Part shown: piece after piece, positions 2,534 through 64,000 of the stretch
How the letters are laid out: every line of letters starts with the position of its first letter
Position numbering within the stretch: the stretch's first letter is position 1
Assembly: GCA_964019135.1 (NCBI GenBank)
Contig: OZ025257.1
Location: forward strand, 19,805,971-19,869,970
Direction: 5' to 3'
From: Arenicola marina
Lineage: Eukaryota > Annelida > Polychaeta > Arenicolidae
Length of the DNA: 64,000 bases
The notes under the pieces: generated by a model
Told to the model about the DNA's origin: nothing
Seen by the model: only the letters and a program-made list of their open reading frames with translations
Databases searched by the model: none
Position numbers and translations under genes: made by a program

Positions 2534-3900
2534 CTATGTCGGATACACTATGTGGCAAAAAACATGACGCACTTTTGCGGTTTGTACATGTGTTTGATTT
2601 CTTATGTTATAGTCATGTCTGTCAGAGGGATATTGTATAGAAATTCCATCAACATAGTTTGGTAAGTGATTATTTTTTAACTTAAAAACGAATTTTAGTA
2701 TTTGCACACGGTGAAGATCATGAGGCTTTAGGAGTTTGCGATTTTTAAATAGAGGTTCTGTATGGGCGTTGTATCGGCTATGAGTAATAATTCTCACAGC
2801 CTTTTTCTGCAGTAGCATTAACTTTTCCAATCGGTATCCCCAGATAAGAATCCCATAGTTCAAATGTGTAAGCAACAATGAATTGTACAATATGAGAAGC
2901 GTAGTTTCGGGGAGGGTGTGCTTGAATTTGTTTAAGATGCCTACAGTTTTTGAAATTCTTCGACCCAGTTGATCTGTGTGTTTGTGCCAAGATAAGTGTT
3001 TATCGAGGGTTATACCTAGTAATTTAAATTCATCAACACACACTAACGTTTATTTCCTACGACAAGGGGCGGAATTTCTACCTTTCTCGGTGGTGTATGG
3101 AACACCATGAATTTAGACTTATCCGCATTTAAGACGAGGCTATTTAATGACAGCCACTCATTTATTTTACCCAGTTCACTTATTAATTCATGCGCGTTAT
3201 TCGTACCAGATAAACTTAGTGTGCTCAACAATGTCGTGTCATCAGCATAAATGATCAAGTGGAACAATTTGCTGGCAGAGGTAATGTCATTGATATAGAT
3301 AATGAAGAAGAGAGGGCCCAGGATAGAACTTTGCGGGACCCCCATATTGAAATGTTTTTGCTCTGAATTAACATTTTCAAGACATACGAATTGCTTAGGA
3401 TTAAAGAAATAATTTTCCATGAGATTCAAGGACATTCCATTTACACCATAGTATTTTAATTTTGTAATAAGGATTTCGTGGTTAATGGTATCGAAAGCCT
3501 TAGAAAGATCGAGGAAAATATTTATGGGTATTGTTTTGTCCACTATTTCTAGCACGGCAAGTTCAGTGGAGTGTTTGGCTCTAAATCCATATTGACTCTC
3601 ATTTAATAACTTGTTACCCGTAACATAGTCATATAATTGCTTAGCCATGACCTTTTCAAAAACTTTGGATACTGCCGGTAATAATGAGATAGGGCGATAG
3701 TTATTAAACAGAGAGCTGTCACCAATTTCAAGAACTGGCACAACTTTCGCCACCTTTAATCTATCCGGGAAAACCCCAGTCTTCAGTGATTGGTTGATGA
3801 TTATTGACAAGGGTTCCGATATCACATGTTTTGCCAATTTTAACAACTTTGCTGATATCCCATCATGACCGCAGCTGGTACTCGGGAAATGTTCTTTTAT
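2534..3900 (-). pseudogene. LINE reverse transcriptase and C-terminal region, frameshifted
   Basis: The reverse transcriptase would copy element RNA at the nicked target. The frame running 3846-3043 (open further upstream to about 3900, with GHDGISAKLLK) shows RT blocks in order: YRPISLLPAVSKVFEK, QYGFRAKHST, FLDLSKAFDT, MGVPQSSILGP and the catalytic IYADDT. The usual GVPQGSILGP has one Gly replaced by Ser. A few residues before FLDLSKAF are missing compared with the nested LINE. Near 3043 the frame stops and the protein continues in another frame (CVDEFKLLGITLDKHLSWHKH, then the C-terminal region to 2534), so there is at least one frameshift. The copy is not functional. The plus-strand LINE carries the same C-terminal block, which supports the assignment. 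Confidence 0.85.
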
Positions 3901-4050
3901 TACGAGAGTGATTTAACACGTCTTTCAGTACCATCCATGTTTGTTTAATATCATTTTTGCACATATTTAATCGTGAATGATAGTATTTCATTTTGGATCC
4001 CTGAATATTTTCTTTCAGTATTTTGTTGTAATTAGCTAGATTCTCTTTCT

Positions 4051-5530
4051 GTTAACCTTCTAAAATTGATTAAAGATGAAATCTCTGTAGCTCTGACCTT
4101 TATTGTGAATCAATCACTGGCAACAAGCATCTTTCCGTCTAAACTGAAAATTGCCAAAGTTGTACCAGTTTATAAGAAGGGTAATGAAAATGATATTAGC
4201 CACTGTCGTCCAATATCCATTTTGCCGGCCATGTCTAAGGTTTTTGAGAAAATAATTGCTAACCAACTCTACAATTACTTTGACATAAATAAACTGTTTA
4301 GAAATAGTCAATACGGATTTCGCTCCAAACATTCGACTGACCTAGCTGTATTAGAGGTTGTAGATCGTGTCCTTATATCAATGGATCAAAACCAACTTCC
4401 CGTTAGTATTTTCCTTGATCTTTCTAAGGCTTTCGACACTATTGATCATGACATATTAATCAAAAAAATAAATCATTACGGAATCCGCGGAATGGCCCTG
4501 AGTTTGCTGGAGAATTATTTAACAAATAGATCGCAATGTGTTTGTCTGGATGACGTCACGTCAAACATGACGAACATAACGACAGGTGTACCACAAGGTT
4601 CCATTCTAGGACCATTATTATTCATAATTTATATTAATGACATAGAACAGTGTAGTAAATTCTTTAAATATATAATATATGCGGATGATACCACGCTTTT
4701 CTTTTCATTTAACTACAACTGGAACATCCTCTATTATTATAAATGCAGAACTTAGAAAAATAAATGAGTGGTTCTCTGCAAATCGGCTAGTTCTTAACAT
4801 AGAGAAATCTAAATATATGCTTTTTTATACGCCACAAAGAAAAGTAAACCCAATAGAGTTGTCAATTAACAATACGCATTTGGAGTGTGTTGATGAATTC
4901 AATCTGTTGGGTATCACCATAAACAAACATCTTAAGTGGCATAATCATGTAAGAAAAATTGCAAACAAAATAAACAAATCCATTGGCATTATGCATAGAC
5001 TGAAACATATCCTTCCCCAACACGTTTTACTAAGCCTGTATAATTCATTGATTCTGCCTCATATAACAACAGGGGTCCTGCTATGGGGTTATGACAACAC
5101 CAGTTTGTTTAGATTGAGGGCTATTACGCTAAGTAAATGGAATGCGCACTCCGAGCCTCTGTTTAAACAACTGCGATGCCTAAAGATAACAGACATACAT
5201 AAACTACAGCTGCTAAAATTTTATTACAAACAAAAGAAGGGAATTCTTCCAGAATACGTTTTGAATCTACCGCTTACTTCGCTTTGTGATATACACCATC
5301 ATAATACCAGACGTAATTCGTATGTCTTTACCAGTAGAGCCAGACATTCCTTTGCCCTTAAATGTATCAGACATAGTCTTGTTGATCTAATTAATAATGA
5401 GCCCACCAGTGTTCTCTCTAAAATAGACACGCACAGCATACATGGATTCGCAAACTACAACAAAATCATTATTCTAGATAATTACTCCTACGACTGTACC
5501 ATTGAAAACTGCTACATATGCCAGTATTAA
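4051..5530 (+). pseudogene. LINE reverse transcriptase fragment (nested copy)
   Basis: Truncated reverse transcriptase. The first frame (about 4051-4755) has CRPISILPAMSKVFEK, QYGFRSKHST, FLDLSKAFDT, GVPQGSILGPLLFIIYINDI and IYADDT, all intact. Between about 4697 and 4735 the reading moves to another frame, which continues with ELRKINEWFSANRLVLN, ECVDEFNLLGITINKHLKWHNH and the C-terminal region ending at 5530. That makes one frameshift. A short deletion is also likely near LFRLRAITLSKWNAHSEPL, where the minus-strand LINE has a longer stretch. With no 5' part and a frameshift the copy is inactive. Confidence 0.85.
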
Positions 5531-37429: not shown

Positions 37430-40400
37430 GAGTGGCCATGTTGTACCATAGGATGTCAGGGCGGACACCGAGCGGCCATGTTGTACCATAGGATGTCAGG
37501 ACGGACACCGGGCGGCCCTGTTGTACAATAGGATGTCAGGGCGGACACCGAGCGGCCATGTTGTACCATGGGATGTCAGGGCGGACACCGAGCGGCCATG
37601 TTGTACCATAGGATGTCGGGGCGGATACAGAGCGGTCATATTGTACCGTAGGATGTCAGGGCGGACACCGAGCGGCCATGTTGTACCATAGGATGTCAGG
37701 GCGGACACCGAGCGGCCATGTTGTACAATAGGATGTCAGGGCGGACACCGAGCGGCCATGTTGTACAATAGGATGTCAGGGCGGACACCGAGCGGCCATG
37801 TTGTACAATAGGATGTCAGGGCGGACACCGTGCGGCCATGTTGTACCATAGGATGTCAGGACGGACACCGGGCGGCCCTGTTGTACCATGGGATGTCAGG
37901 GCGGACACCGAGCGGCCATGTTGTACCATAGGATGTCGGGGCGGATACAGAGCGGTCATATTGTACCGTAGGATGTCAGGGCGGACACCGAGCGGTCATG
38001 AACCATAGGATGTCAGGGCGGACACCGAGCGGCCATGTTGTACCATGGGATGTCAGGGCGGACACCGAGCGGCCATGTTGTACCATAGGATGTCGGGGCG
38101 GACACAGAGCGGTCATATTGTACCGTAGGATGTCAGGGCGGACACCGAGCGGTCATGAACCATAGGATGTCAGGGCGGACACCGAGCGGCCATGTTGTAC
38201 GGTAGGATGTCAGGGCGGACACCGAGCGGTCATGAACCATAGGATTTCAGTGCGGACACCGAGTGGTCATGTTGTACCATAGGATGTCTGGGCGGACACC
38301 GAGCGGCCATGTTTTACCATAGGATGTTCTCGCACACATTGAGCGGCCATGTTGTACCATAGAATGTCAGGGTGGACACCGAGCGGCCATGTTGTACCAT
38401 GTGATGTCAGGGCGGACACCGAGCGGTCATGTTGTACCATAGGATGTCAGGGCGGACACGGATAGGCCATGTTGTACCATAGAATGTCTTGGCGGACACA
38501 GAGCGGTCATATTGTACCATAGGATGTCAGGGCGGACACTGAGCGGCCATGTTGTACCATGGGATGTCAGGGCGGACACCGAGCGGCCATGTTGTACCAT
38601 AGGATGTCAGGGCGGACACAGAGCGGTCATATTGTACCATAGGATGTCAGGGCGGACACTGAGCGGCCATGTTGTACCATAGGATGTCAGGGCAGACGCC
38701 GAGCGGCCATGTTGTACCATGTGATGTCAGGGCGGACACCCAGCGGTCATGTTGTACCATAGGATGTCGGGGCGGACACAGAGCGGTCATATTGTACCGT
38801 AGGATGTCAGGGCGGACACCGAGCGGTCATGAACCATAGGATGTCAGGGCGGACACCGAGCGGCCATGTTGTACGGTAGGATGTCAGGGCGGACACCGAG
38901 CGGTCATGAACCATAGGATTTCAGTGCGGACACCGAGTGGTCATGTTGTACCATAGGATGTCTGGGCGGACACCGAGCGGCCATGTTTTACCATAGGATG
39001 TTCTCGCACACATTGAGCGGCCATGTTGTACCATAGAATGTCAGGGTGGACACCGAGCGGCCATGTTGTACCATGTGATGTCAGGGCGGACACCGAGCGG
39101 TCATGTTGTACCATAGGATGTCAGGGCGGACACGGATAGGCCATGTTGTACCATAGAATGTCTTGGCGGACACAGAGCGGTCATATTGTACCATAGGATG
39201 TCAGGGCGGACACTGAGCGGCCATGTTGTACCATAGGATGTCAGGGCGGACACCGAGCGGCCATGTTGTACCATAGGATGTCAGGGCGGACACAGGGCGG
39301 TCATATTGTACCATAGGATGTTAGGGCGGACACTGAGCGGCCATGTTGTACCATAGGATGTCAGGGCAGACGCCGAGCGGCCATGTTGTACCATGTGATG
39401 TCAGGGCGGACACCCAGCGGTCATGTTGTACCATAGGATGTCGGGACGGACACTGGGCGGCCATGTTGCACCATAAGATGTCGGGGCGGACACTGACCAG
39501 CCATGTTGCACCATAGAATGTCGGGGCGGACACAGAGCGGTCATATTGTACCATAGGATGTCAGGGCGGACACCGAGCAGCCATGTTATACCATAGGATG
39601 TCATCGCGGACATCGAGCGGTCATGTTGTACCATAGGATGTCAAGGCAGACACTGAACGGCTATGTTGTACCATAGGATGTCAGGGCGGACACCGAACGG
39701 TCATTTGTACCATATGATGTCAGGGCGGACACTGAGCGGCCATGTTGTACCATGTGATGTCAGGGCGGACACCGAGCGGTCATGTTGTACCATAGGATGT
39801 CATGGCGGACACTGTGCGGCTATGTTGCACAATAGGACGTCCGGGCTGACACTGAGAGGTCATGTTGTACCATAGGATGTTAGGGCAGACACTGAGCGGC
39901 CATGTTGTACCATAGGATGTCAGGTCAGGACACCGAGCGGTCATGTTATACCATAGGATGTCAGGACGGACACTGAGCGGTCATGTTGTACCATAGGATG
40001 TCAGGGCGGACACCGAGCAGCCATGTTGTACCATAGGATGTCAGGCCGACACTGAGCGGCCATGTTGTACAATAGGCTGTCAGGGTGGACACTGAGCGGC
40101 CATGTTGTACCATAGGATGTTAGGGCGGCCACCGAGCGGCCATGTTGTACCATAGAATGTCAGGGCGGACACCGAGCGGCCATGTTGTACCATAGGATGC
40201 AAGGGCAGACACTGATCAGCTATGTTGTACCATAGGATGTCAGGGCGGACACCGAGCGGCCATCTTGTACCATAGGATGTCAGGGCGGACACGGATAGGC
40301 CACTTTGTGCCATAGGATGTCAGGGCGGACACCGAGCGGCCATGTTGTACCATAGGATGTAAGGGCGGACACCGAGCGGCCATCTTGTACCATATAATGT

Positions 40401-40808
40401 CAGGACGGACACCGAGCGACCATGTTTTTGTACCATGGGATGTCAGGGCGGACACGGATAGGCCACGTTGTACCATAGGATGTCAGGGCGGACACCGAGC
40501 GGCCATGTTGTACCATAGGATGTCAGGGCGGACACCGAGCGGCCCTGGTGTACCATAGGATGTCAGGACGGACACCGAGCGGCCATGTTGTACCATAAGA
40601 TGTCAGGACGGACACTGAGTGGCCATGTTGTACCATAGGATGTCAGGGCGGACACCGAGCGGCCATGTTGTACCATATAATGTCAGGACGGACACCGAGC
40701 CACCATGTTTTTGTACCATAGGATGTCAGGGCGAACACCGAGCGGCCATGTTGTACCATAAGATGTCAGGACGGACACTGAGCAGTCATGTTGTACCATA
40801 GGGCGTCA
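37430..40808 (+). repeat. Minisatellite, ~40-bp unit, with a 674-bp higher-order repeat
   Basis: About 84 tandem units of roughly 40 bp, built on CCATAGGATGTCAGGGCGG, then ACACCGAGCGGCCATG and TTGTA. Variant units such as TTCTCGCACACATTGAGCGG, GTACGGTAGG and GGTCATGAACCATAGG recur 674 bp apart (38091 and 38765; 38321 and 38995; 38693 and 39367). The block 38085-38758 is thus duplicated in tandem. The period is not a multiple of three. Short frames on both strands are shadows. Confidence 0.95.
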
Positions 40809-42698: not shown

Positions 42699-42959
42699 GA
42701 CGACCCGTATTCGTGCCGTTCCTGGTAGCGCGCGGCGGCCGCGATGGGAACGGCTGACCACTGGATGTGCTGAGAAGTTCTGGATATATTTAGCGAATAT
42801 TATACGTTAATTAATTCACGCCTCGTATTTGGAAACGGAACCCTCCGCGTGCAGTCCGATTTTCATTGTGGCGATGTCAATGGCGATTTGAAGAGGATTG
42901 TAGGATCTGACGAGTGGGCGGGCGTGTGTTGTGAGTGAAGGTCAAGGATCAAGGTCACC

Positions 42960-44171
42960 ATGGGCAGCGGCGATGAGCTTCACCTGTACAATGACTCGTA
43001 CCTTCGCTATGGCGACCCGTTCTACCACGGGACCAATGACAACCTGGCTGGGGGAGACGGGGAGGGTGCAATCAAGGCGCGGGGGGAGGGAGAGTCCGAC
43101 TACGGGGCCTTCGGCGACCTTAGCCCCGAATTCTGTTTCAACGGGATCATGATACCCATCATCGGAGTCTTCGGTATCCTTGGCAACGCCCTGAACCTGG
43201 GGGTGTTGTCATGGCGATGCAACAAGAGAGAGATTGACGTGCTGGAGCGCGGGGCGTTGCTAGGGCTCATCGCCCTGGCGCTGTCCGACCTGTGCTTCTG
43301 CATCGGCGTCACCCCGAACGTGGCCTTCTACGAGGAGAAGAACTACTTCGAGTCTAAAGGATTCCACTACTATTTCCAGATCTACCGGCTGTACCTCTAC
43401 AACGTCTTCATCAAGATCAGCACGTGGCTCACGATGATTATCGCCACCGCGCGCTACGTCGCCATCTGCCACCCGCTGCGCGCACGAATATTCGCCGGAC
43501 TATTCGCCACGAAGGCCGCCATCTTGGCCACGTACCTCATGTGGCTGGTGCTGCACGCGCCGCTCCTGTGGATGTACCAGGTGCATGAGTACGACTTGAA
43601 ACGCCCCGACAAGAAGGTGGTTTACGTCCTCGACTTAGGACCGTTCCAAACCAACAGGTTCTTGAAGCTTTTTTTCACTTATATGTGGGCCTTGGTCGGT
43701 TACTTCATTCCAATCATGGTGTTAACGTTCTGCAATATCAACCTCATCCGGGCATTGAGGGAGTCCAGCAAATGGCGGGAGGCATCGACGCGTAGCAACG
43801 CCCCCAGCGGCAGGGACGCCAACCTGCGGATAACCTTGACCTTGATCGCGTTGATTCTCATGTTTCTTATTCTGGTCTCGCCCTCCGAATTGCTACATTT
43901 CTACGCGGAGGTTGTCCAGTCGGATACATTCCCAGCGTTCAAACTGGCCATCATCTGTACCAATGTTCTGCAGGCGGTCAACTTCGCCTTCCATTTTGTC
44001 CTCTACTGCGCCGTCAACGTGACCTTCAGAAAGACGATCATAAACAGCGTCTACGCTTTGCTGAACAAAGTGCGCCGCACCCCTAACCAGAGAACACTCT
44101 CCTACCGTAGGTCTATGTCCATCACCAGAGGGGGCAACGCAAGCTTCAAATCAGTTGAAACCCATGTGTAA
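42960..44171 (+). CDS. Rhodopsin-family (class A) GPCR, invertebrate neuropeptide-receptor type
   Basis: Seven-helix plasma-membrane receptor of 403 residues in one exon. The start has an excellent Kozak context (GTCACCATGGG). The extracellular N-terminus (about 60 residues, acidic/Gly-rich) has one N-glycosylation site, Asn11. TM1 about 63-85 carries GN (75-76); TM2 98-118 has Asp110; TM3 about 140-165 ends ARYVAICHP; TM4 185-205; TM5 237-262 with Pro251; TM6 290-315 with SPSELLHFY (Pro308); TM7 327-352 with NFAFHFVLYC. A short Arg/Ser-rich tail follows. Departures from the class pattern: Ala164 replaces the acidic residue of D/ERY, the NPxxY position reads HFVLY, TM6 lacks the CWxP Trp, and I see no Cys at the TM3 top or in loop 2 for the usual disulfide. 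It resembles FMRFamide/TRH-receptor-like invertebrate peptide receptors. The ligand is unknown. Confidence 0.9.
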   Translation: MGSGDELHLYNDSYLRYGDPFYHGTNDNLAGGDGEGAIKARGEGESDYGAFGDLSPEFCFNGIMIPIIGVFGILGNALNLGVLSWRCNKREIDVLERGALLGLIALALSDLCFCIGVTPNVAFYEEKNYFESKGFHYYFQIYRLYLYNVFIKISTWLTMIIATARYVAICHPLRARIFAGLFATKAAILATYLMWLVLHAPLLWMYQVHEYDLKRPDKKVVYVLDLGPFQTNRFLKLFFTYMWALVGYFIPIMVLTFCNINLIRALRESSKWREASTRSNAPSGRDANLRITLTLIALILMFLILVSPSELLHFYAEVVQSDTFPAFKLAIICTNVLQAVNFAFHFVLYCAVNVTFRKTIINSVYALLNKVRRTPNQRTLSYRRSMSITRGGNASFKSVETHV

Positions 44172-48282: not shown

Positions 48283-51060
48283 TCCACCCAGTCCACCGTC
48301 ACCAGCCCCACTACCTAGTCCACCTTCGCCAGCCGCACCACCCAGTCCACCGTCACCAGCCCCACCACCCAGTCCACCGTCACCAGCCCCACCACCCAGT
48401 TCACCGTCACCAGCCCCACCACCCAGTCCACCGTCATCAGCCCAACCACCCAGTCCACCGTCACCAGCCCCACCACCCAGTCCACCGTCACCAGCCCCAC
48501 CACCCAGTCCACCGTCATCAGCCCCACCACCCAGTCCACCGTCACCAGTCCCACCACCCAGTCCACCGTCACCAGCCCCACCACCCAGTCCACCGTCACC
48601 AGCCCTATCACCCAGTCCACCGTCAACCAGCCCCACCACCCAGTCCACCGTCACCAGCCCCACCACCCAGTCCACCGTCACCAGCCATACCACCCAGTCC
48701 ACCGTCACCAGCCCCACCACCCAGTCCAACGTCACCAGCCCCACCACCCAGTCCACCGTCACCAGCCCCACCACCCAGTCCATCGTCACCAGCCCCACCA
48801 CCCAGTCCACCGTCATCAGCTCAACCACCCAGTCCATCGTCACCAGCCCCACCACCCAGTCCACCGTCACCAGCCCCAGCACCCAGTCCACCGTCATCAG
48901 CCCCACCACCCAGTCCACCGTCACCAGCCCCACCACCCAGTCCACCGTCACCAGTCCCACCACCCAGTCCACCTTCACCAGCCCCACCACCCAGTCCACC
49001 GTCACAAGCCCCACCACCCAGTCCACCGTCACCAGCCCCACCACCCAGTCCACCTTCACCAGCCCCACCACCCAGTCCACCGTCACCAGCCCCACCATCC
49101 AGTCCACCGTCATCAGCCCCACCACCCAGTCCACCGTCACCAGCCCCACCACCCAGTCCACCGTCATCAGCCCCACCACCCAGTCCACCGACGCCAGCCC
49201 CACCACCCAGTCCACCGACACAAGCCTCACTACCCAGTCCACCGTCACCAGCCCCACGTCCACCGTCACCAGCCACACCACCCAGTCTACCGTCACCAGC
49301 CCCACGACCCAGTCCACCGTCACCAGCCCCACCATTTAGTCCACCGTCACCAGTCCCACCACCCAGTCCACCGTCACCAGCCCCACCACCCAGTCCACCG
49401 TCACCAGCCCCACCACCCAGTCCACCGTCACCAGTCCCACCACCCAGTCCACCGTCACCAGCCCCACCACCCAGTCCACCGTCACCAGCCCCACCACCCA
49501 GTCCACCGTCACCAGCCCCAGCACCCAGTCCACCGTCACCAGCCCCACCACCCAGTCCACCGTCACCAGACCCACCACCCAGTCTACCGTCACCAGCCCC
49601 ACCACCCAGTTCACCGTCACCAGCCCCACCACCCAGTCCACCGTCACCAGCCCCACCACCCAGTCCACCGTCACCAGCCTCACCACCCAGTCCACCGTCA
49701 CCAGCCCCACCACCCAGTCCACCGTCACCAGCCCCACCAGCCAGTCCACCGTCACCAGCCCCACCACCCAGTAAACCGTCACCAGCCCCACCACCCAGTC
49801 CACCGTCACCAGCCCCACCAACCAGTCCACCGTCACCAGCCCCACCACCTAGTCCACCGTCACCAGCCCCACCACCCAGTCCACCGTCACCAGCCCCACC
49901 ACCCAGTCCACCGTCACCAGCCCCACCACCCAGTCCACCGTCACCAGCCCCACCACCCAGTCCACCGTCACCAGTCCCACGACCCAGTCCACCGTCACCA
50001 GCCCCATCACCCAGTCCACCGTCACCAGCCCCAACAACCACTCCTCCGTCACCAGCCCCACCACCCAGTCCACCGTCACCAGCCCCACTACCCAATCCAC
50101 CGTCACCAGCCCCACCACCCAGTCCACCGTCACCAGCCCCACCACCCAGTCCACGGTCACCAGCCCCAACACCCAGTCCACCGTCACCAGCCCCAACACC
50201 CAGTCCACCATCACCAGCCCCACTACCCAGTCCACCGTCACCAGCCCCACCACCCAGTCCACCGTCACCAGCCCCACCACCCAGTCCACCGTCACCAGCC
50301 CCACTACTCAGTTAACCGTCACCAGTCTCACCACCCAGGCCACCGACACCAGCCCCACCACCCAGTCCACCGTCACCAGCCCCACAACCCAGTCCACCGT
50401 CACCAGCCCCACCACCCAGTCCACCGTCACCAGCCCCACCACCCAGTCCACCGTCACCAGCCCCACCACCCAGTCCGCCGTCACCAGCCCCACCACCCAG
50501 TCCACCGTCACCAGCCCCACCATCCAGTCCACCGTCACCAGCTCCACCACCCAGTCCACCGTCACAAGCCCCACCACCCAGTCCACCATCACCAGCCCCA
50601 CCACCCAGTCCACCGTCACCAGCCCCACCACCCAGTCCATCGTCACCAGCCCCACCACCCGCTCCACCGTCACCAGCCCCACCACCCAGTCCACCGTCAC
50701 CAGCTCCACGACCCAGTCCACCGTCACCAGCCCCACCACCCAGTTCACCGTCACCAGCCACACCAACCAGTCCACCGTCACCAGCCAGCCCCACCAACCA
50801 GGCCACCGTCACCAGTCCCACCACCCAGTCCGCCGTCACCAGCCCCACCAATCAGTCCACCGTCACCAGCCACACCACCCAGTCCACCGTCACCAGCCCC
50901 ACCACCCAGTCCACCGTCACCAGCCCCACCACCCAGTCCACCGTCACCAGGTGGCCCCACACACCAGTCCACCGTCTCCAGCCCCACCACCCAGTCCACC
51001 GTCACCAGCCCTAGCACCCAGTCCACCGTCACCAGCTCCACCACCCAGTCCACCGTCACC
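48283..51060 (+). repeat. Minisatellite, 27-bp unit
   Basis: About 100 tandem units; each joins CAGTCCACCGTCAC to CAGCCCCACCACC. Because 27 is a multiple of three and the unit has no stop, all plus frames and several minus frames stay open: PPSPPSPAP, TTQSTVTSP and HHPVHRHQP on the plus strand, VDWVVGLVT and GGLGGGAGD on the minus strand. Single-base indels (for example near 48627) change the register without concern for frame, which speaks against coding. A Ser/Thr/Pro mucin-type exon in the TTQSTVTSP frame cannot be fully excluded. No signal peptide or flanking domain is seen. Confidence 0.93.
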
Positions 51061-54000
51061 AGCCCCACCACCTTCCTCACCTCTTACCCCCACCACCCTC
51101 TTCCTCACCTCTCATCCCCACCATCCTCTTCCTCACCTCTCAGCCCCGCCACCCTCTTCCTTACCTCTCACCCCCACCACCCTCTTCCTCACCTCACATC
51201 CACACCACGCTCTTCCTTACCTCTCAGCCCCACCACCCACTTCCTTACCTCTCAGCCCCACCACCCTCTTCCTTACCTCCCAGCCCCACCACCTTCTTCC
51301 TCACTTCTCAGCCCACCACCCTCTTCCTCACCTCTCAGCCCCACCACCCTCTTCCTCACCACTCAGCCCCAACACCTTCTTCCTTACCTCTCAGCCCCAC
51401 CACCCTCTTCCTTACCTCTCATTCCCACCACCCTCTTCCTCACCTCTCAGCCCCACCACCCTCTTCCTCACCTCTCAGCCCCAACACCCTCTTCCTTACC
51501 TCTCAGCCCCACCACCCTCTTCTTTACCTCTCATTCCCACCACCCTCTTCCTCACCTCTCAGCCCCACCACCCACTTCCTCACCTCTCAGCCCCAACACC
51601 CTCTTCCTTACCTCTCAGCCCCACCACCCTCTTCCTTACCTCTCATTCCCACCACCCTCTTCCTCACCTCTCAGCCCCAACACCCTCTTCCTTACCTCTC
51701 AGCCCCACCACCCTCTTCATGACCTCTCAGCCCCACCACCCTCTTACTTTCCTGTCAGCCCCACCACCCTCTTCCTCACCTTCAGCCCCACCACCCTCTC
51801 CCTTACCTCCTCAGCCCCACCACCCTCTTCCTCACCTCTCAGCCCCACCAAGCTCTTCCTCACCTCTCAGCAACACCACCTTCTTCCTCACCTCTCAGCC
51901 TCACCACCCTCTTCCTCACCTCTCAGCCTCGCCACCCTCTACCTCACCTCTCTGCCCCACCACCCTCTTCCTCACCTCTCAGCCTCACCACCCTCTTCCT
52001 CACCTCTCATTCCCACCACCCTCTTCCTTACCTCTCATCCCCACCACCCTCTTCCTCACCTCTCAGCCCCACCACCCTCTTCCTCACCTCTCAGTCCCAC
52101 CACCCTCTTTCTCACCTGTCAGCCCCACCACCCTCTTCCCCACCTCTCAGCCCCGCCACCCTCTTCCTCACCTCTCAGCCCCACCACCCTCTTCCTCACC
52201 TCTCAGCCTCGCCACCCTCTACCTCACCTCTCAGCCCCACCACCCTCTTCCTCACCTCTCAGCCTCACCACCCTCTTCCTCACCTCTCAGCCCCACCACC
52301 CTCTTCCTCACGTTTCAGCCCCACCATCCTCTTCCTCACCTCTCATCCCCACCACCCTCTTCCTTACCTCTTAGCCCCACCACCCTCTTCCTCACCTCTC
52401 ATTCCCACCACCCTCTTCCTCACCTCTCATCCCCACCAGCCTCTTCCTCACCTCTCAGCCTCGCCACCCTCTACCTCACCTCTCAGCCCCACCACCCTCC
52501 TCCTCACCTCTCAGCCCCACCACCCTCTTCCTCACCTCTCACCCCCACCACCCTCTTCCTCACCTCTCAGCCCCACCACCCTCTTCTTCACCTCTCATCC
52601 CCACCTCTCATTCCCACCACCCTCTTCCTCACCTCTCAGCCCCGCCACCCTCTTCCTCACCTCTCACCCCCACCACCCTCTTCCTCACCTCTCAGCCCCA
52701 CCACCCTCTTCCTCACCTCTCAGCCCCACCACCCTCTTCCTTACCTCTCAGCCCCACCACCCTCTTCCTCACCTCTCATCCCCACCACCCTCTTCCTCAC
52801 CTCTCATCTCCACCATCCTCTTCCTCACCTCTCAACCCCACCACCCTCTTCCTCACCTCCCAGCCCCACCACCCTCTACCTCACCTCTCAGCCCCGCCAC
52901 CCTCTTCCTCACCTCTCAGCCCCACCACCCTCTTCCTCACCTCTCAGCCCCACCACCCTCTTCCTTACCTCTCAGCCCCACCACCCTCTACCTCACCTCT
53001 CAGCCCCACACCCTCTTCCTCAGCTCTCAGCCCCACCACCCTCTTCCTCACCTCTCATCCCCACCACTCTCTTCCTTACCTCTCAGCCCCACCACCCTCT
53101 TCTTTACCTCCCAGCCCCAGCCCCCTCTTCCTCACCTCTCATCCCCATCACCCTCTTCCTCACCTCTCAGCCCCACCACCCTCTTCCTCACCTCTCAGCC
53201 CCACCACCCTCTTCCTCACCTCTCAGCCTCGCCACCCTCTTCCTCACTTCTCAGCCCCACCATCCTCTTCCTCACCTCTCCGCAACACCACCCTCTTCCT
53301 CACCTCTCAGTCCCACCACCCTCTTCCTCACCTCTCAGCCCCGCCACCCTCTTCCTCACCTCTCAGCCCGACCACCCTCTTCCTCACCTCTCATCCCCAC
53401 CACCCTCTTCCTTACCTCTCAGCCCCGCCACCCTCTTCCTTACCTCTCAGCCCGACCACCCTCTTCCTCACCTCTCAGCCCCACCACCCTCTTCCTCACC
53501 TTTCAGCCCCACCAACCTCGTCCTCACCTCTCAGCCCCACCACCATCTTCCTCACCTCTCAGCCCCACCACCCTCCTCCTCACCTCTCTGCCCCACCACC
53601 CTCTACCTCACCTCTCAGCCCCACCACCCTCTTCCTCACCTCTCAGCCCCACCACCCTCTCCCTCACCTTCAGCCCCACCACCCTTCCCCTTACCTCTCA
53701 GCCCCACCACGCTCTACCTCACCTCTCAGCCCCACACCCTCTTCCTCAGCTCTCAGCCCCACCACCCTCTTCCTCACCTCTCATCCCCACCACTCTCTTC
53801 CTTACCTCTCAGCCCCACCACCCTCTTCTTTACCTCCCAGCCCCAGCACCCTCTTCCTCACCTCTCATCCCCATCACCCTCTTCCTCACCTCTCAGCCCC
53901 ACCACCCTCTTCCTCACCTCTCAGCCCCACCACCCTCCTCCTCACCTCTCAGCCTCGCCACCCTCTTCCTCACTTCTCAGCCCCACCACCCTCTTCCTCA

Positions 54001-57000
54001 CCTCTCCGCAACACCACCCTCTTCCTCACCTCTCAGTCCCACCACCCTCTTCCTCACCTCTCAGCCCCGCCACCCTCTTCCTCACCTCTCAGCCCCACCA
54101 CCCTCTTCCTCACCTCTCAGCCCCACCACCCTCTTCCTCACCTCTCAGCCTCGCCACCCTCTTCCTCACTTCTCAGCCCCACCACCCTCTTCCTCACCTC
54201 TCCGCAACACCGCCCTCTTCCTCACCTCTCAGTCCCACCACCCTGTTCCTCACCTCTCAGCCCCGCCACCCTCTTCCTCACGTCTCAGCCCCACCACCCT
54301 CTTCCTCACCTCTCATCCCCACCACCCTCTTCCTTACCTCTCAGCCCCGCCACCCTCTTCCTCACCTCTCAGCCCCACCACCCTCTTCCTCACCTCTCAG
54401 CCCCACCACCCTCTTCCTCACCTCTCAGCCCCACCACCCTCTTCCTCACCTCTCATCCCCACCACCCTCTTCCTCACCTCTCAGCCCCACCACCCACTTC
54501 CTCACCTCTCATCCCCACCACCCTCTTCCTCACCTCTCAGCCCCACCATCCTCTTCCTCACCTCTCAGTCCCACCACCCTCTTCCTCACCTGTCAGCCCC
54601 ACCACCCTCTTCCCCACCTCTCAGCCCCGCCACCCTCTTCCTCACCTCTCATCCCCACCACCCTCTTCCTCACCTCTCAGCCCCACCACCCTCTTCCTCA
54701 CCTCTCAGCCCCACCACCCTCCTCCTCACCTCTCTGCCCCACCACCCTCTACCTCACCTCTCAGCCCCACCACCCTCTTCCTCACCTCTCAGCCCCACCA
54801 CCCTCTCCCTCACCTTCAGCCCCACCACCCTCTCCCTTACCTCTCAGCCCCACCACGCTCTTCATCACCTCTCAGCCCCACCAACCTCGTCCTCACCTCT
54901 CAGCCCCACCACCCTCTTCCTCACCTCTCAGCCCCACCACCCTCCTCCTCACCTCTCTGCCCCACCACCTTCTACCTCACCTCTCAGCCCCACACCCTCT
55001 TCCTCAGCTCTCAGCCCCACCACCCTCTTCCTCACCTCTCATCCCCACCACTCTCTTCCTTACCTCTCAGCCCCACCACCCTCTTCATTACCTCCCAGCC
55101 CCAGCACCCTCTTCCTCACCTCTCATCCCCATCACCCTCTTCCTCACCTCTCAGCCCCACCACCCTCTTCCTCACCTCTCAGCCCCACCACCCTCCTCCT
55201 CACCTCTCAGCCTCGCCACCCTCTTCCTCACTTCTCAGCCCCACCACCCTCTTCCTCACCTCTCCGCAACACCACCCTCTTCCTCACCTCTCAGTCCCAC
55301 CACCCTCTTCCTCACCTCTCAGCCCCGCCAACCTCTTCCTCACCTCTCAGCCCCAACACCCTCTTCCTTACCTCTCAGCCCCACCACCCTCTTCCTTACC
55401 TCCCAGCCCCACCACCTTCTTCCTCACTTCTCAGCCCACCACCCTCTTCCTCACCTCTCAGCCCCACCACCCACTTCCTCACCTCTCAGCCCCAACACCC
55501 TCTTCCTTACCTCTCAGCCCCACCACCCTCTTCCTTACCTCTCATTCCCACCACCCTCTTCCTCACCTCTCAGCCCCAACACCCTCTTCCTTACCTCTCA
55601 GCCCCACCACCCTCTTCATGACCTCTCAGCCCCACCACCCTCTTACTTTCCTGTCAGCCCCACCACCCTCTTCCTCACCTTCAGCCCCACCACCCTCTCC
55701 CTTACCTCCTCAGCCCCACCACCCTCTTCCTCACCTCTCAGCCCCACCAAGCTCTTCCTCACCTCTCAGCAACACCACCTTCTTCCTCACCTCTCAGCCT
55801 CACCACCCTCTTCCTCACCTCTCAGCCTCGCCACCCTCTACCTCACCTCTCTGCCCCACCACCCTCTTCCTCACCTCTCAGCCTCACCACCCTCTTCCTC
55901 ACCTCTCATTCCCACCACCCTCTTCCTTACCTCTCATCCCCACCACCCTCTTCCTCACCTCTCAGCCCCACCACCCTCTTCCTCACCTCTCAGTCCCACC
56001 ACCCTCTTTCTTACCTGTCAGCCCCACCACCCTCTTCCCCACCTCTCAGCCCCGCCACCCTCTTCCTCACCTCTCAGCCCCACCACCCTCTTCCTCACCT
56101 CTCAGCCTCGCCACCCTCTACCTCACCTCTCAGCCCCACCACCCTCTTCCTCACCTCTCAGCCTCACCACCCTCTTCCTCACCTCTCAGCCCCACCACCC
56201 TCTTCCTCACGTTTCAGCCCCACCATCCTCTTCCTCACCTCTCATCCCCACCACCCTCTTCCTTACCTCTTAGCCCCACCACCCTCTTCCTCACCTCTCA
56301 TTCCCACCACCCTCTTCCTCACCTCTCATCCCCACCAGCCTCTTCCTCACCTCTCAGCCTCGCCACCCTCTACCTCACCTCTCAGCCCCACCACCCTCCT
56401 CCTCACCTCTCAGCCCCACCACCCTCTTCCTCACCTCTCACCCCCACCACCCTCTTCCTCACCTCTCAGCCCCACCACCCTCTTCTTCACCTCTCATCCC
56501 CACCTCTCATTCCCACCACCCTCTTCCTCACCTCTCAGCCCCGCCACCCTCTTCCTCACCTCTCACCCCCACCACCCTCTTCCTCACCTCTCAGCCCCAC
56601 CACCCTCTTCCTCACCTCTCAGCCCCACCACCCTCTTCCTTACCTCTCAGCCCCACCACCCTCTTCCTCACCTCTCATCCCCACCACCCTCTTCCTCACC
56701 TCTCATCTCCACCATCCTCTTCCTCACCTCTCAACCCCACCACCCTCTTCCTCACCTCCCAGCCCCACCACCCTCTACCTCACCTCTCAGCCCCGCCACC
56801 CTCTTCCTCACCTCTCAGCCCCACCACCCTCTTCCTCACCTCTCAGCCCCACCACCCTCTTCCTTACCTCTCAGCCCCACCACCCTCTACCTCACCTCTC
56901 AGCCCCACACCCTCTTCCTCAGCTCTCAGCCCCACCACCCTCTTCCTCACCTCTCATCCCCACCACTCTCTTCCTTACCTCTCAGCCCCACCACCCTCTT

Positions 57001-60000
57001 CTTTACCTCCCAGCCCCAGCCCCCTCTTCCTCACCTCTCATCCCCATCACCCTCTTCCTCACCTCTCAGCCCCACCACCCTCTTCCTCACCTCTCAGCCC
57101 CACCACCCTCTTCCTCACCTCTCAGCCTCGCCACCCTCTTCCTCACTTCTCAGCCCCACCATCCTCTTCCTCACCTCTCCGCAACACCACCCTCTTCCTC
57201 ACCTCTCAGTCCCACCACCCTCTTCCTCACCTCTCAGCCCCGCCACCCTCTTCCTCACCTCTCAGCCCGACCACCCTCTTCCTCACCTCTCATCCCCACC
57301 ACCCTCTTCCTTACCTCTCAGCCCCGCCACCCTCTTCCTTACCTCTCAGCCCGACCACCCTCTTCCTCACCTCTCAGCCCCACCACCCTCTTCCTCACCT
57401 TTCAGCCCCACCAACCTCGTCCTCACCTCTCAGCCCCACCACCCTCTTCCTCACCTCTCAGCCCCACCACCCTCCTCCTCACCTCTCTGCCCCACCACCC
57501 TCTACCTCACCTCTCAGCCCCACCACCCTCTTCCTCACCTCTCAGCCCCACCACCCTCTCCCTCACCTTCAGCCCCACCACCCTTCCCCTTACCTCTCAG
57601 CCCCACCACGCTCTACCTCACCTCTCAGCCCCACACCCTCTTCCTCAGCTCTCAGCCCCACCACCCTCTTCCTCACCTCTCATCCCCACCACTCTCTTCC
57701 TTACCTCTCAGCCCCACCACCCTCTTCTTTACCTCCCAGCCCCAGCACCCTCTTCCTCACCTCTCATCCCCATCACCCTCTTCCTCACCTCTCAGCCCCA
57801 CCACCCTCTTCCTCACCTCTCAGCCCCACCACCCTCCTCCTCACCTCTCAGCCTCGCCACCCTCTTCCTCACTTCTCAGCCCCACCACCCTCTTCCTCAC
57901 CTCTCCGCAACACCACCCTCTTCCTCACCTCTCAGTCCCACCACCCTCTTCCTCACCTCTCAGCCCCGCCACCCTCTTCCTCACCTCTCAGCCCCACCAC
58001 CCTCTTCCTCACCTCTCAGCCCCACCACCCTCTTCCTCACCTCTCAGCCTCGCCACCCTCTTCCTCACTTCTCAGCCCCACCACCCTCTTCCTCACCTCT
58101 CCGCAACACCGCCCTCTTCCTCACCTCTCAGTCCCACCACCCTGTTCCTCACCTCTCAGCCCCGCCACCCTCTTCCTCACGTCTCAGCCCCACCACCCTC
58201 TTCCTCACCTCTCATCCCCACCACCCTCTTCCTTACCTCTCAGCCCCGCCACCCTCTTCCTCACCTCTCAGCCCCACCACCCTCTTCCTCACCTCTCAGC
58301 CCCACCACCCTCTTCCTCACCTCTCAGCCCCACCACCCTCTTCCTCACCTCTCATCCCCACCACCCTCTTCCTCACCTCTCAGCCCCACCACCCACTTCC
58401 TCACCTCTCATCCCCACCACCCTCTTCCTCACCTCTCAGCCCCACCATCCTCTTCCTCACCTCTCAGTCCCACCACCCTCTTCCTCACCTGTCAGCCCAA
58501 CCACCCTCTTCCCCACCTCTCAGCCCCGCCACCCTCTTCCTCACCTCTCATCCCCACCACCCTCTTCCTCACCTCTCAGCCCCACCACCCTCTTCCTCAC
58601 CTCTCAGCCCCACCACCCTCCTCCTCACCTCTCTGCCCCACCACCCTCTACCTCACCTCTCAGCCCCACCACCCTCTTCCTCACCTCTCAGCCCCACCAC
58701 CCTCTCCCTCACCTTCAGCCCCACCACCCTCTCCCTTACCTCTCAGCCCCACCACGCTCTTCATCACCTCTCAGCCCCACCAACCTCGTCCTCACCTCTC
58801 AGCCCCACCACCCTCTTCCTCACCTCTCAGCCCCACCACCCTCCTCCTCACCTCTCTGCCCCACCACCTTCTACCTCACCTCTCAGCCCCACACCCTCTT
58901 CCTCAGCTCTCAGCCCCACCACCCTCTTCCTCACCTCTCATCCCCACCACTCTCTTCCTTACCTCTCAGCCCCACCACCCTCTTCTTTACCTCCCAGCCC
59001 CAGCACCCTCTTCCTCACCTCTCATCCCCATCACCCTCTTCCTCACCTCTCAGCCCCACCACCCTCTTCCTCACCTCTCAGCCCCACCACCCTCCTCCTC
59101 ACCTCTCAGCCTCGCCACCCTCTTCCTCACTTCTCAGCCCCACCACCCTCTTCCTCACCTCTCCGCAACACCACCCTCTTCCTCACCTCTCAGTCCCACC
59201 ACCCTCTTCCTCACCTCTCAGCCCCGCCAACCTCTTCCTCACCTCTCAGCCCCACCACCCTCTTCCTCACCTCTCAGCCCCACCACCCTCTTCCTCACCT
59301 CTCAGCCTCGCCACCCTCTTCCTCACTTCTCAGCCCCACCACCCTCTTCCTCACCTCTCCGCAACACCGCCCTCTTCCTCACCTCTCAGTCCCACCACCC
59401 TGTTCCTCACCTCTCAGCCCCGCCACCCTCTTCCTCACGTCTCAGCCCCACCACCCTCTTCCTCACCTCTCATCCCCACCACCCTCTTCCTTACCTCTCA
59501 GCCCCGCCACCCTCTTCCTCACCTCTCAGCCCCACCACCCTCTTCCTCACCTCTCAGCCCCACCACCCTCTTCCTCACCTCTCAGCCCCACCACCCTCTT
59601 CCTCACCTCTCATCCCCACCACCCTCTTCCTCACCTCTCAGCCCCACCACCCACTTCCTCACCTCTCATCCCCACCACCCTCTTCCTCACCTCTCAGCCC
59701 CACCATCCTCTTCCTCACCTCTCAGTCCCACCACCCTCTTCCTCACCTGTCAGCCCTACCACCCTCTTCCCCACCTCTCAGCCCCGCCACCCTCTTCCTC
59801 ACCTCTCATCCCCACCACCCTCTTCCTCACCTCTCATCCCCACCACCCTCTTCCTCACCTCTCATTCCCATCACCCTCTTCCTCACCTCTCAGCTCCGCC
59901 GCCCTCTTCCTCACCTCTCACCCCCACAACCCTCTTCCTCACCTCTCAGCCCCACCACCCTCTTCCTCACCTCTCAGCCCCACCACCCTCTTCCTTACCT

Positions 60001-63000
60001 CTCAACCCCACCACCCTCTTCCTCACCTCTCATCCCCACCACCCTCTTCCTCACCTCTCATCTCCACCATCCTCTTCCTCACCTCTCAACCCCACCACCC
60101 TCTTCCTCACCCCCCAGCCCCACCACCCTCTTCCTTACCTCTCAGCCCCACCACCCTCTTCCTCACCTCTCATCCCCACCACCCTCTTCCTCACGTCTCA
60201 GTCCCACCACCCTCTTCCTTCCCTCTCAGCCCCACCACCCTCTACCTCACCTCTCAGCCCCACACCCTCTTCCTCACCTTTCAGCCCCACTACCCTCTTC
60301 CTCACCTCTCAGCCCCGCCACCCTCTTCCTCACCTCTCAGCCCCACCACCCTCTTCCTCACCTCTCAGCCCCACCACCCTCTTCCTCACCTCTCAGCCCC
60401 ACCACCCTCTTCCACACCTCTCAGCCCCACCACCCTCTTCCTCACCTCTCAGCCCCACCACCCTCTTCCTCACATCTCATCCCCACCACCCTCTTCCACA
60501 CCTCTCAGCCCCACCACCCTCGTCCTCACCTCTCAGCCCCACCACCCTCTTCCTCACCTTTCAGCCCCACCACCCTCTTCCTCACCTCTCAGCCCAACCA
60601 CCCTCTTCCTCACCTCTCAGCCCCACCACCCTCTTTCTCACCTGTCAGCCCCACCACCCTTTTCCTCACCTCTCATCCCCATCACCCTGTTCCTCACCTC
60701 TCAGTCCCATCACCCTCTTCCTCGACTCTCAGCCCCACCACCCTCTTCCTCACCTCTCAGCCCCGCCACCCTCTTCCTCACCTCTCAGCCCCACCACCCT
60801 CTTCCTCACCTCTCAGCCCCGCCACCCTCTTCCTCACCTCTCAGCCCCGCCACCCTCTACCTCAGCTCTCAGCCCCGCCACCCTCTTCCTCACCTCTCAG
60901 CCCCACCACCCTCTTCCTCACCTCTCAGCCCCACCACCCTCTACCTCACCTCTCAGCCCCGCCACCCTCTTCCTCACCTCTCAGCCCCACCACCCTCTTC
61001 CTCACCTCTCAGCCCCCCCACCCTCTTCCTCACCTGTCAGCCCCGCCACCCTCTTCCTCACCTCTCAGCCCCGCCACCCTCTTCCTCACTTCTCAGCCCC
61101 ACCCCTCTCTTCCTCACCTCTCATCCCCACCACCCTCTTCCTCACCTCTCAGCCCCACCACCCTCTTCCTCACCTCTCAGCCCCGCCACCCTCTTCCTGA
61201 CCTCTCAGCCCCACCACTTTCTTCCTTACCTTTCAGCCCCACCACCCTCTTCCTTACCTTTCAGCCCCACCACCCTCTTCCTTACCTCTCAGCCCCACCA
61301 CCCTCTTCTCACCTCTCAGCCCCACCACCCTCTTCCTCACCTCTCAGCCCCACCACCTTCTTCCTTACCTTTCAGCCCCACCACCCTCTTCCTTACCTCT
61401 CAGCCCCATCACCCTCTTCCTCACCTCTCAGCCCCACCACCTTCTTCCTTACCTTTCAGCCCCACCACCCTCTTCCTTTCCTCTCAGCCCCACCACCCTC
61501 TTCCTCACCTCTCAGCCCCACCACCCTCTTCCTCACCTCTCAGCCCCGCCACCCTCTTCCTCACATCTCAGCCTCACCACCCTCTTCCTTACCTCTCAGC
61601 CCCACCACCCTCTTCCTCACCTCTCAGCCCCACTACCCTCTTCCTCACCTCTCATCCCCATCACCCTCTTCCTTACCTCTCAGCCCCACCACCCTCTTCC
61701 TCACCTCTCAGCCCCACCACCCTCTTCCTCACCTCTCAGCCCCACCACCCTCTACCTCACCTCTCAGCCACACCACCCTCTACCTCACCTCTCAGCCCCA
61801 CCACCCTCTACCTCACCTCTCAGCCCCAACACCCTCTTCCTCACCTCTCAGCCCCACCACCCTTTTCCTCGCCTCTCAGCCCCACCACCCTCTACCTCAC
61901 CTCTCAGCCCCACCACCCTCTACCTCACCTCTCAGCCCCACCACCCTCTTCCTCACCTCTCAGCCCCACCACCCTCTACCTCACCTCTCAGCCCCACCAC
62001 CCTCTACCTCACCTCTCAGCCCCAACACCCTCTTCCTTGCTTCTCAGCCCCACCACCCTCTTCCTTACCTCTCATTCCCACCACCCTCTTCCTCACCTCT
62101 CAGCCCCAACACCCTCTTCCTTACCTCTCAGCCCCACCACCCTCTTCATGACCTCTCAGCCCCACCACCCTCTTACTTTCCTGTCAGCCCCACCACCCTC
62201 TTCCTCACCTTCAGCCCCACCACCCTCTCCCTTACCTCCTCAGCCCCACCACCCTCTTCCTCACCTCTCAGCCCCACCAAGCTCTTCCTCACCTCTCAGC
62301 AACACCACCTTCTTCCTCACCTCTCAGCCTCACCACCCTCTTCCTCACCTCTCAGCCTCGCCACCCTCTACCTCACCTCTCTGCCCCACCACCCTCTTCC
62401 TCACCTCTCAGCCTCACCACCCTCTTCCTCACCTCTCATTCCCACCACCCTCTTCCTTACCTCTCATCCCCACCACCCTCTTCCTCACCTCTCAGCCCCA
62501 CCACCCTCTTCCTCACCTCTCAGTCCCACCACCCTCTTCCTCACCTGTCAGCCCCACCACCCTCTTCCCCACCTCTCAGCCCCGCCACCCTCTTCCTCAC
62601 CTCTCAGCCCCACCACCCTCTTCCTCACCTCTCAGCCTCGCCACCCTCTACCTCACCTCTCAGCCCCACCACCCTCTTCCTCACCTCTCAGCCTCACCAC
62701 CCTCTTCCTCACCTCTCAGCCCCACCACCCTCTTCCTCACGTTTCAGCCCCACCATCCTCTTCCTCACCTCTCATCCCCACCACCCTCTTCCTTACCTCT
62801 TAGCCCCACCACCCTCTTCCTCACCTCTCATTCCCACCACCCTCTTCCTCACCTCTCATCCCCACCAGCCTCTTCCTCACCTCTCAGCCTCGCCACCCTC
62901 TACCTCACCTCTCAGCCCCACCACCCTCCTCCTCACCTCTCAGCCCCACCACCCTCTTCCTCACCTCTCACCCCCACCACCCTCTTCCTCACCTCTCAGC

Positions 63001-64000
63001 CCCACCACCCTCTTCCTCACCTCTCATCCCCACCTCTCATTCCCACCACCCTCTTCCTCACCTCTCAGCCCCGCCACCCTCTTCCTCACCTCTCACCCCC
63101 ACCACCCTCTTCCTCACCTCTCATCCCCACCACCCTCTTCCTCACCTCTCAGCCCCACCACCCTCTTCCTTACCTCTCAGCCCCACCACCCTCTTCCTCA
63201 CCTCTCATCCCCACCACCCTCTTCCTCACCTCTCATCTCCACCATCCTCTTCCTCACCTCTCAACCCCACCACCCTCTTCCTCACCTCCCAGCCCCACCA
63301 CCCTCTACCTCACCTCTCAGCCCCGCCACCCTCTTCCTCACCTCTCAGCCCCACCACCCTCTTCCTCACCTCTCAGCCCCACCACCCTCTTCCTTACCTC
63401 TCAGCCCCACCACCCTCTACCTCACCTCTCAGCCCCACACCCTCTTCCTCAGCTCTCAGCCCCACCACCCTCTTCCTCACCTCTCATCCCCACCACTCTC
63501 TTCCTTACCTCTCAGCCCCACCACCCTCTTCTTTACCTCCCAGCCCCAGCCCCCTCTTCCTCACCTCTCATCCCCATCACAATCTTCCTCACCTCTCAGC
63601 CCCACCACCCTCTTCCTCGCCTCTCAGCCCCACCACCCTCTTCCTCACCTCTCAGCCTCGCCACCCTCTTCCTCACTTCTCAGCCCCACCATCCTCTTCC
63701 TCACCTCTCCGCAACACCACCCTCTTCCTCACCTCTCAGTCCCACCACCCTCTTCCTCACCTCTCAGCCCCGCCACCCTCTTCCTCACCTCTCAGCCCGA
63801 CCACCCTCTTCCTCACCTCTCATCCCCACCACCCTCTTTCTTACCTCTCAGCCCCGCCACCCTCTTCCTTACCTCTCAGCCCGACCACCCTCTTCCTCAC
63901 CTCTCAGCCCCACTACCCTCTTCCTCACCTTTCAGCCCCACCAACCTCGTCCTCACCTCTCAGCCCCACCACCCTCTTCCTCACCTCTCAGCCCCACCAC
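51061..64000 (+). repeat. 28-bp-unit satellite with nested higher-order repeats, continuing past the window
   Basis: Around 460 units; each joins CTTCCTCACCTCTCAG to CCCCACCACCCT, with frequent variants (CCTTACC, CTCATCCCC, GCCTCGCC, CCCCGCC). Variant order repeats over long distances. CTTCATGACC occurs at about 51715, 55614 and 62144. The CAGCTCTCAG variant occurs at 53021, 53747 and 55005, and again exactly 3,899 bp later at 56920, 57646 and 58904. So there is a 3,899-bp higher-order unit containing 726- and 1,258-bp sub-blocks. Frames of 1,556 and 1,860 codons exist because the unit has no plus-strand stop. Since 28 is not a multiple of three, they run through all registers and are not genes. 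Confidence 0.96.

Follow-up and report, generated by a model that had tools for sequence, protein, structure and literature searches.

A 27-kb single-locus minisatellite in the annelid Arenicola marina that very probably grew by tandem duplication of ever longer monomer blocks

Minisatellites are described as arrays of 0.5-30 kb (PMC8122249), and at variable-number loci such as human MSY1, MS32 and CEB1 the order of variant monomers along an array is reported to record its mutation, with intra-allelic duplications and deletions among the events (PMC2599865). A comparable copying of whole monomer blocks is described for longer satellites, including alpha satellite and the dimers and trimers of Chrysolina (PMC8122249), and likewise for grasshopper satellites, as indicated by the title of a work cited in PMC8822648. 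Here, we describe an array of 28-bp units from the polychaete Arenicola marina in which a history of this type can be followed over several kilobases. The window, meaning the whole stretch of 64,000 nucleotides first considered, is C10:19805971-19869970 (contig OZ025257.1 of assembly GCA_964019135.1, which comprises 867 Mb in 762 contigs). The downstream 100 kb were added to give a 164-kb region for analysis, and positions are given in window numbering throughout.

The array is made up of the plus-strand unit CAGCCCCACCACCCTCTTCCTCACCTCT, and was delimited by TRF, monomer density and segmentation as extending from 51060 to the end of the window at 64000 and on to about 78453 (C10:19884423), 14,453 bases past the window end. 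Its right end was set by eye (TRF gives 78433), for a total of 27,394 bp. With a 28-bp unit and a length of ~27.4 kb, it lies within the size range of minisatellites (unit ~9-100 bp, array 0.5-30 kb). Segmentation of the whole array yielded 982 monomers of 144 types, 42 of which occur once, and 213 monomers are identical to the consensus. Monomer length is 27-29 bp in 972 of the 982, the ten exceptions being the monomers at the two array ends and those of one odd pair, which is present four times. When the genome was searched for the unit, allowing up to two mismatches, 783 places were found, all on one strand, while the reversed unit, used as a control, had no genome match. The array itself holds 783 such copies, and because the two counts are equal we take it to be a single-locus minisatellite rather than a dispersed or shared centromeric satellite, an identification that rests on this equality and applies to copies with at most two mismatches. 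Other genomic DNA matching the array was 64-74% alike, and those matches that were scanned with TRF proved to be arrays of other units.

Comparing the array with itself at all lags revealed four block copies, with starts near 51535, 55434, 61964 and 70003 and thus spacings of 3,899, 6,530 and 8,042 bp, so that the multimer unit is not constant. Copy 1 (51536-55434, plus strand, 3,899 bp, seen at lag 3,899) is equivalent to the initial portion of the longer block found in copies 2-4. Copy 2 (55435-61963, plus strand, ~6,530 bp) was identified at lags 3,899 and 6,530; copy 3, found at lags 6,530 and 8,042, occupies 61964-64000 on the plus strand in the window and has a full length of 8,042 bp; copy 4 lies outside the window, running from ~70003 for 8,451 bp up to the array end. 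Relative to copy 4, copy 3 contains ~1.1 kb of additional sequence. Nested within these blocks are smaller duplications on the same strand: a 726-bp pair (52944-53440 and 53670-54166, 97.8% identity) and, in copy 2, a 1,258-bp pair (57569-58633 and 58827-59891, 13 mismatches in 1065) that is found again in copies 3 and 4. The odd pair of monomers, 17 bp and 24 bp in length, serves as a marker of the blocks; it was located by monomer segmentation at 52596-52636 (plus strand) and recurs at 56495, 63025 and 71067, reproducing the spacings of 3,899, 6,530 and 8,042 bp.

These results bear out much of the original prediction, which was made from the letters of the window. The nine marker pairs on which it was based (six at 3,899 bp, one at 726 bp and two at 1,258 bp) are present and lie within exact runs of 116 to 1,431 bp, and the third copy that it placed at an offset of 6,530 bp is found there (55434-57635 against 61964-64165, 99.1%). 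The nested higher-order structure it proposed is likewise evident from the nested block copies and from the longest repeated run of monomer types, which is 51 in the array and 3-6 in ten order shuffles. Furthermore, blocks are ~0.1-0.9% apart, whereas monomers inside the array differ from the consensus at an average of 1.4 of 28 positions; the blocks are thus more alike than the monomers within them, as in a higher-order repeat. However, the regular three-level satellite with a 3,899-bp unit that had been envisaged is not what we see, since the spacings vary and 3,899 bp corresponds to one young duplication.

The order of events was examined through divergence, using ungapped columns only and taking as block limits the stretches with at least 98% identity. 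Divergence is 2.15% for the 726-bp pair (10/466 on the part compared), 1.22% for the 1,258-bp pair (13/1065), 0.82% between copies 2 and 3 (40/4899), 0.22% between copies 3 and 4 (11/4896) and 0.12% between copies 1 and 2 (4/3366). Each of the two young levels (copies 1/2 and copies 3/4) is separated from each of the three older levels (Fisher p <0.00007); the ages of the 726-bp and 1,258-bp levels are not separated (p 0.18), nor are those of the 1,258-bp and copy 2/3 levels (p 0.21). Block A shows 3/2152 differences between copies 1 and 2, 8/2149 between copies 3 and 4, and 9 to 16 for cross-group pairs, copy 4 being nearer to copy 2 (9/2149) than copy 3 is (16/2152). In block B, there are 3/2747 differences between copies 3 and 4, 24 between copies 2 and 3, and 23 between copies 2 and 4. 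Among two-state informative sites (columns with gaps were left out, as were two sites showing three or more states), all those in block A (6/6) and block B1 (7/7) fit the tree ((1,2),(3,4)), and all 17 informative sites in the 1,258-bp alignment are compatible with a single tree. The pattern of duplication and the order of its young events follow from these alignments, and the recent amplification that had been predicted is seen in the divergence of 0.1% for copies 1/2 and 0.2% for copies 3/4.

Ongoing homogenisation by conversion finds little support: three of the four block alignments are free of conflict, and in the fourth, the 466-bp p/q/r alignment, there are 14 informative sites, of which 2 are at odds with 4 others. 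In the same stretch, copies 1 and 2 differ by 6 mismatches, of which 5 fall within 55356-55409. Taken together, the p/q/r conflicts and the clustered mismatches indicate either a certain amount of conversion or a patch at a breakpoint. Across the 3,899-bp pair as a whole there are 16 mismatches, 4 inside 51536-55355 and 12 at either end of the matching stretch. Array edges are expected to be homogenised least, and the edges observed here agree in part with this expectation: types found once account for 8 of the first 15 monomers, 32/952 inside the array and 2/15 at the right edge, and mean differences from the consensus are 1.93 at the left edge, 1.41 inside and 2.67 at the right edge.

The very small divergence of copies 1 and 2, with only 4 mismatches in 3.8 kb, is of a size that could be allelic. 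Repeat arrays are difficult to assemble, and the copy number given here rests on one assembly. We nevertheless consider it improbable that the long copies are an artefact created by joining alleles or reads of a single array end to end, since the four copies differ in length and content, have internal duplications of their own and possess a common phase marker, and since the array has no Ns and lies inside one 43-Mb contig. Block copies are also found in other arrays of the assembly (see below), which again argues against an artefact, although the same would be expected of a systematic fault of the assembler. The high similarity of the multi-kb copies might also be produced in one step by rolling-circle amplification, through the copying and re-insertion of an excised circle of monomers, and re-inserted rolled circles are a proposed source of satellites (PMC8122249). 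Under this process, the copies should be equal in unit length and in divergence, whereas the spacings here are 3,899, 6,530 and 8,042 bp and divergence is nested, which makes it a very unlikely origin for the array.

We therefore favour, with considerable confidence, the reading that this is a non-coding minisatellite at a single locus that has grown by in-register tandem duplication of ever longer blocks of monomers. Growth would have begun with an array beside a 27-bp array, perhaps arising from its edge, and block duplications of 726 bp and 1,258 bp would have come next. A block of several kilobases would then have been duplicated, giving an ancestor of copies 1/2 and an ancestor of copies 3/4, and recently, in two separate events, blocks of 3,899 and 8,042 bp would have been duplicated. 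Each step might have occurred by unequal sister-chromatid exchange, or by template misalignment during break repair, between similar monomers. Unequal exchange, already suggested as the likely cause in the original prediction, accords with the keeping of monomer phase (972/982 at 27-29 bp), and the preservation of phase at the joins argues for homologous unequal exchange and against random end-joining. As to the molecular mechanism, unequal exchange or misaligned break repair is most likely, being the simplest reading of the pattern. Such a mechanism is ordinary, and the array is a clean and long example of it. Larger blocks show lower divergence, making the array a readable record of minisatellite growth.

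The 27-bp minisatellite that abuts the 28-bp array was found by TRF at 48284-51072 (plus strand, ~103 copies). The two units have 14 contiguous bases in common, an amount of sharing that was reached by chance in 3/20000 composition shuffles and 19/20000 Markov sequences, and the 28-bp unit may, as this resemblance suggests, have arisen at the edge of its neighbour. The 27-bp array has no excess monomer run (3, against 3-4 in shuffles). In one frame it reads as a nine-residue Ser/Thr/Pro-rich mucin-like repeat, QSTVTSPTT; a coding role was rejected, as stops and frame shifts interrupt the frame and silent changes are not in excess (36 observed against 44.2 expected in 101 monomers). The 28-bp array has long open frames of up to 2,941 aa. 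Here too a coding role was rejected: the unit lacks stop codons on the plus strand, so that several frames stay open over one stretch.

Strand asymmetry is marked in the 28-bp array (GC skew ~ -0.87), and this raises the question of whether it could be kept for a function of its sequence, either a splice-donor-like heptamer on the minus strand or two-quartet G4s on the G-rich strand. The minus strand carries AGGTGAG 713 times and AGGTAAG 119 times, and there are 6,619 overlapping two-quartet G4 patterns. Yet the donor-like heptamer is not singled out, ranking third among 22 windows of that length (85% kept; the best window, 87%), no three-quartet G4 pattern exists in the array, and no structure is predicted for two units of either strand, so that maintenance for either function seems hardly credible. 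We infer that the array is free of selection. Hairpins, considered as a source of instability, were likewise not predicted on either strand of a two-unit stretch, and the window gave no Rfam match at gathering score.

A chromosome-specific centromeric higher-order array, maintained by function, would also be nested in order, and the locus does lie near the middle of its contig (19.86 of 43.2 Mb). However, the array measures only 27 kb at one locus with no constant unit, and it lies among other minisatellites, with a GPCR open frame 7 kb upstream, leaving this reading exceedingly unlikely. On the right flank, some kilobases of non-array DNA are followed by more minisatellites. The idea that the arrays are carried by a shared mobile element was rejected for this locus: in an all-against-all comparison of masked sequence, matches ranged from 43 to 2,610 bases, with none immediately adjoining the 28-bp array and one group at 46.4-47.5 kb, upstream of the 27-bp array.

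Pfam matches were obtained for 3 of the 10 window ORFs tried (98 listed) and for none of the 10 tried in the downstream region (46 listed). The 410-aa frame at 42939-44168 (plus strand) encodes a rhodopsin-like GPCR (7tm_1, E 2.5e-19; Srw, E 1.3e-15), with its best matches among solved chains being prolactin-releasing-peptide and galanin receptors. Two RVT_1 frames on opposite strands, at 3046-3912 (minus) and 4036-4752 (plus), are probably parts of retroelements. In the wider sequence, we also noted a 3.1-kb interstitial array of the hexamer TTGGGC (L013:3274-6368), which resembles a telomere-type hexamer, and a 2.6-kb non-satellite tandem duplication at 99.8% identity (L017:5465-8073 against L017:8755-10000 plus L018:1-1360); relatives that have diverged further lie downstream. 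On the mitochondrial contig, C762, the genes nad3, nad2 (matched as Proton_antipo_M), cox1, cox2, atp8 and the start of cox3 follow one another in that order on one strand, read with code 5, the atp8 match being weak (E 0.011, below the cut-off). A position of nad3 between nad1 and nad2 is described as derived in annelids (PMC2639372), and the gene order, read from nad3 onwards, makes an annelid host probable.

We also looked for block duplication in other arrays, with each overlapping TRF group represented by one row, namely the shortest period whose score was half of the best or more. The main set comprised arrays of 1,200 bp or longer and leaves out the TRF-scanned segment L004, and a cut-off of at least 700 bp was applied in samples L032-L039, chosen by round coordinates before inspection. 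The arrays from C20, C10b, C705, L002, L006 and L007 are not a random choice, having matched the window array or lain beside such a match, and the C20 array was chosen also for its evenly spaced matches. In the main set, the longest run exceeded all five shuffles in 12 of 17 rows (including the window array, and with two rows overlapping) and did not in 5; in the pre-chosen samples, the same was true of 6 of 9 arrays, 3 of them with runs of at least 10, and not of the other 3. The 15-bp array on C20 (L028:3823-9743), with a run of 223 monomers and a 1,382-bp block present 4.3 times at 98%, is more regular than the window array, and rolling-circle amplification would suit it better. A 40-bp array 7 kb downstream (L011:1645-10000 plus L012:1-566) has a run of 41 and block copies at 2,038 bp; a 31-bp array on C705 has a run of 25 and block copies at 1,054 bp; and a 40-bp minisatellite within the window (37430-40802), the unit of which is unlike that of the downstream 40-bp array, has block copies at 674 bp. 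Most other arrays with runs are weaker than the window array. Block duplication is not peculiar to this locus. Since 15-, 40- and 31-bp arrays elsewhere in the genome carry block copies, the suggestion that nested order is unusual for a short monomer loses force here.

TRF cover was high in several of the eight pre-chosen 10-kb samples (97.7, 75.4, 42.7, 99.9, 11.2, 0, 29.9 and 40.0% for L032 to L039), and came to 49.6% over all eight, a small sample with a bootstrap range of 26-74%. One sample, L035, is occupied nearly end to end by a 63-bp array. In the 164-kb region, cover is 40%, or ~27% without the 27- and 28-bp arrays (35,918 bases). It is conceivable, though the balance is against it, that about half of the genome derives from very many unrelated locus-specific minisatellites, locally born and enlarged by in-register block duplication of up to several kilobases, with no dominant dispersed family; this wide reading is an extrapolation based on eight samples of 10 kb and a single unit examined for single-locus occurrence. 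If it were true, break repair or replication in this lineage would be biased across the genome towards tandem duplication. The genome's minisatellite load is a more interesting lead than the array itself and, if as high as the small sample suggests, would make this species a good system for studying what drives tandem duplication genome-wide.

High tandem-repeat loads like that of the sampled genome are described in Triatoma delpontei, in which more than half of the genome is satellite DNA with a few families overrepresented (PMC9957312), in Atlantic cod, with 10.9% tandem repeats by Phobos and dinucleotides as the largest class (PMC5241972), and in the earthworm Amynthas aspergillum, with 9.84% tandem repeats and minisatellites at 2.65% of the genome (PMC12130307). 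Unlike the situation in T. delpontei, the units of the arrays seen here differ by eye, the 28-bp unit being the only one tested for single-locus occurrence. In a search of open-licence literature, none of the titles and abstract openings listed described the window array or an annelid genome with such a load, which is weak evidence of absence.

Variable-number loci are among the nearest comparisons for the array. Like MSY1, MS32 and CEB1, it has a unit of 9-100 bp, informative variant monomers and duplicated blocks, and with up to two mismatches its unit is confined to one locus, as in a minisatellite and not as in a dispersed satellite family. It differs from MSY1, where length mutants gain or lose 1-3 units, in that single gains here reach ~139 or more monomers. 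In having blocks of monomers copied as one, it resembles the higher-order satellites of the alpha, beetle and grasshopper types, showing that nested higher-order structure can be found without a nucleosome-sized monomer; unlike arrays of the alpha-satellite type, it has no constant unit and occupies one interstitial 27-kb locus. The window array is a long single-locus minisatellite of a known kind, with a clear history of duplication.
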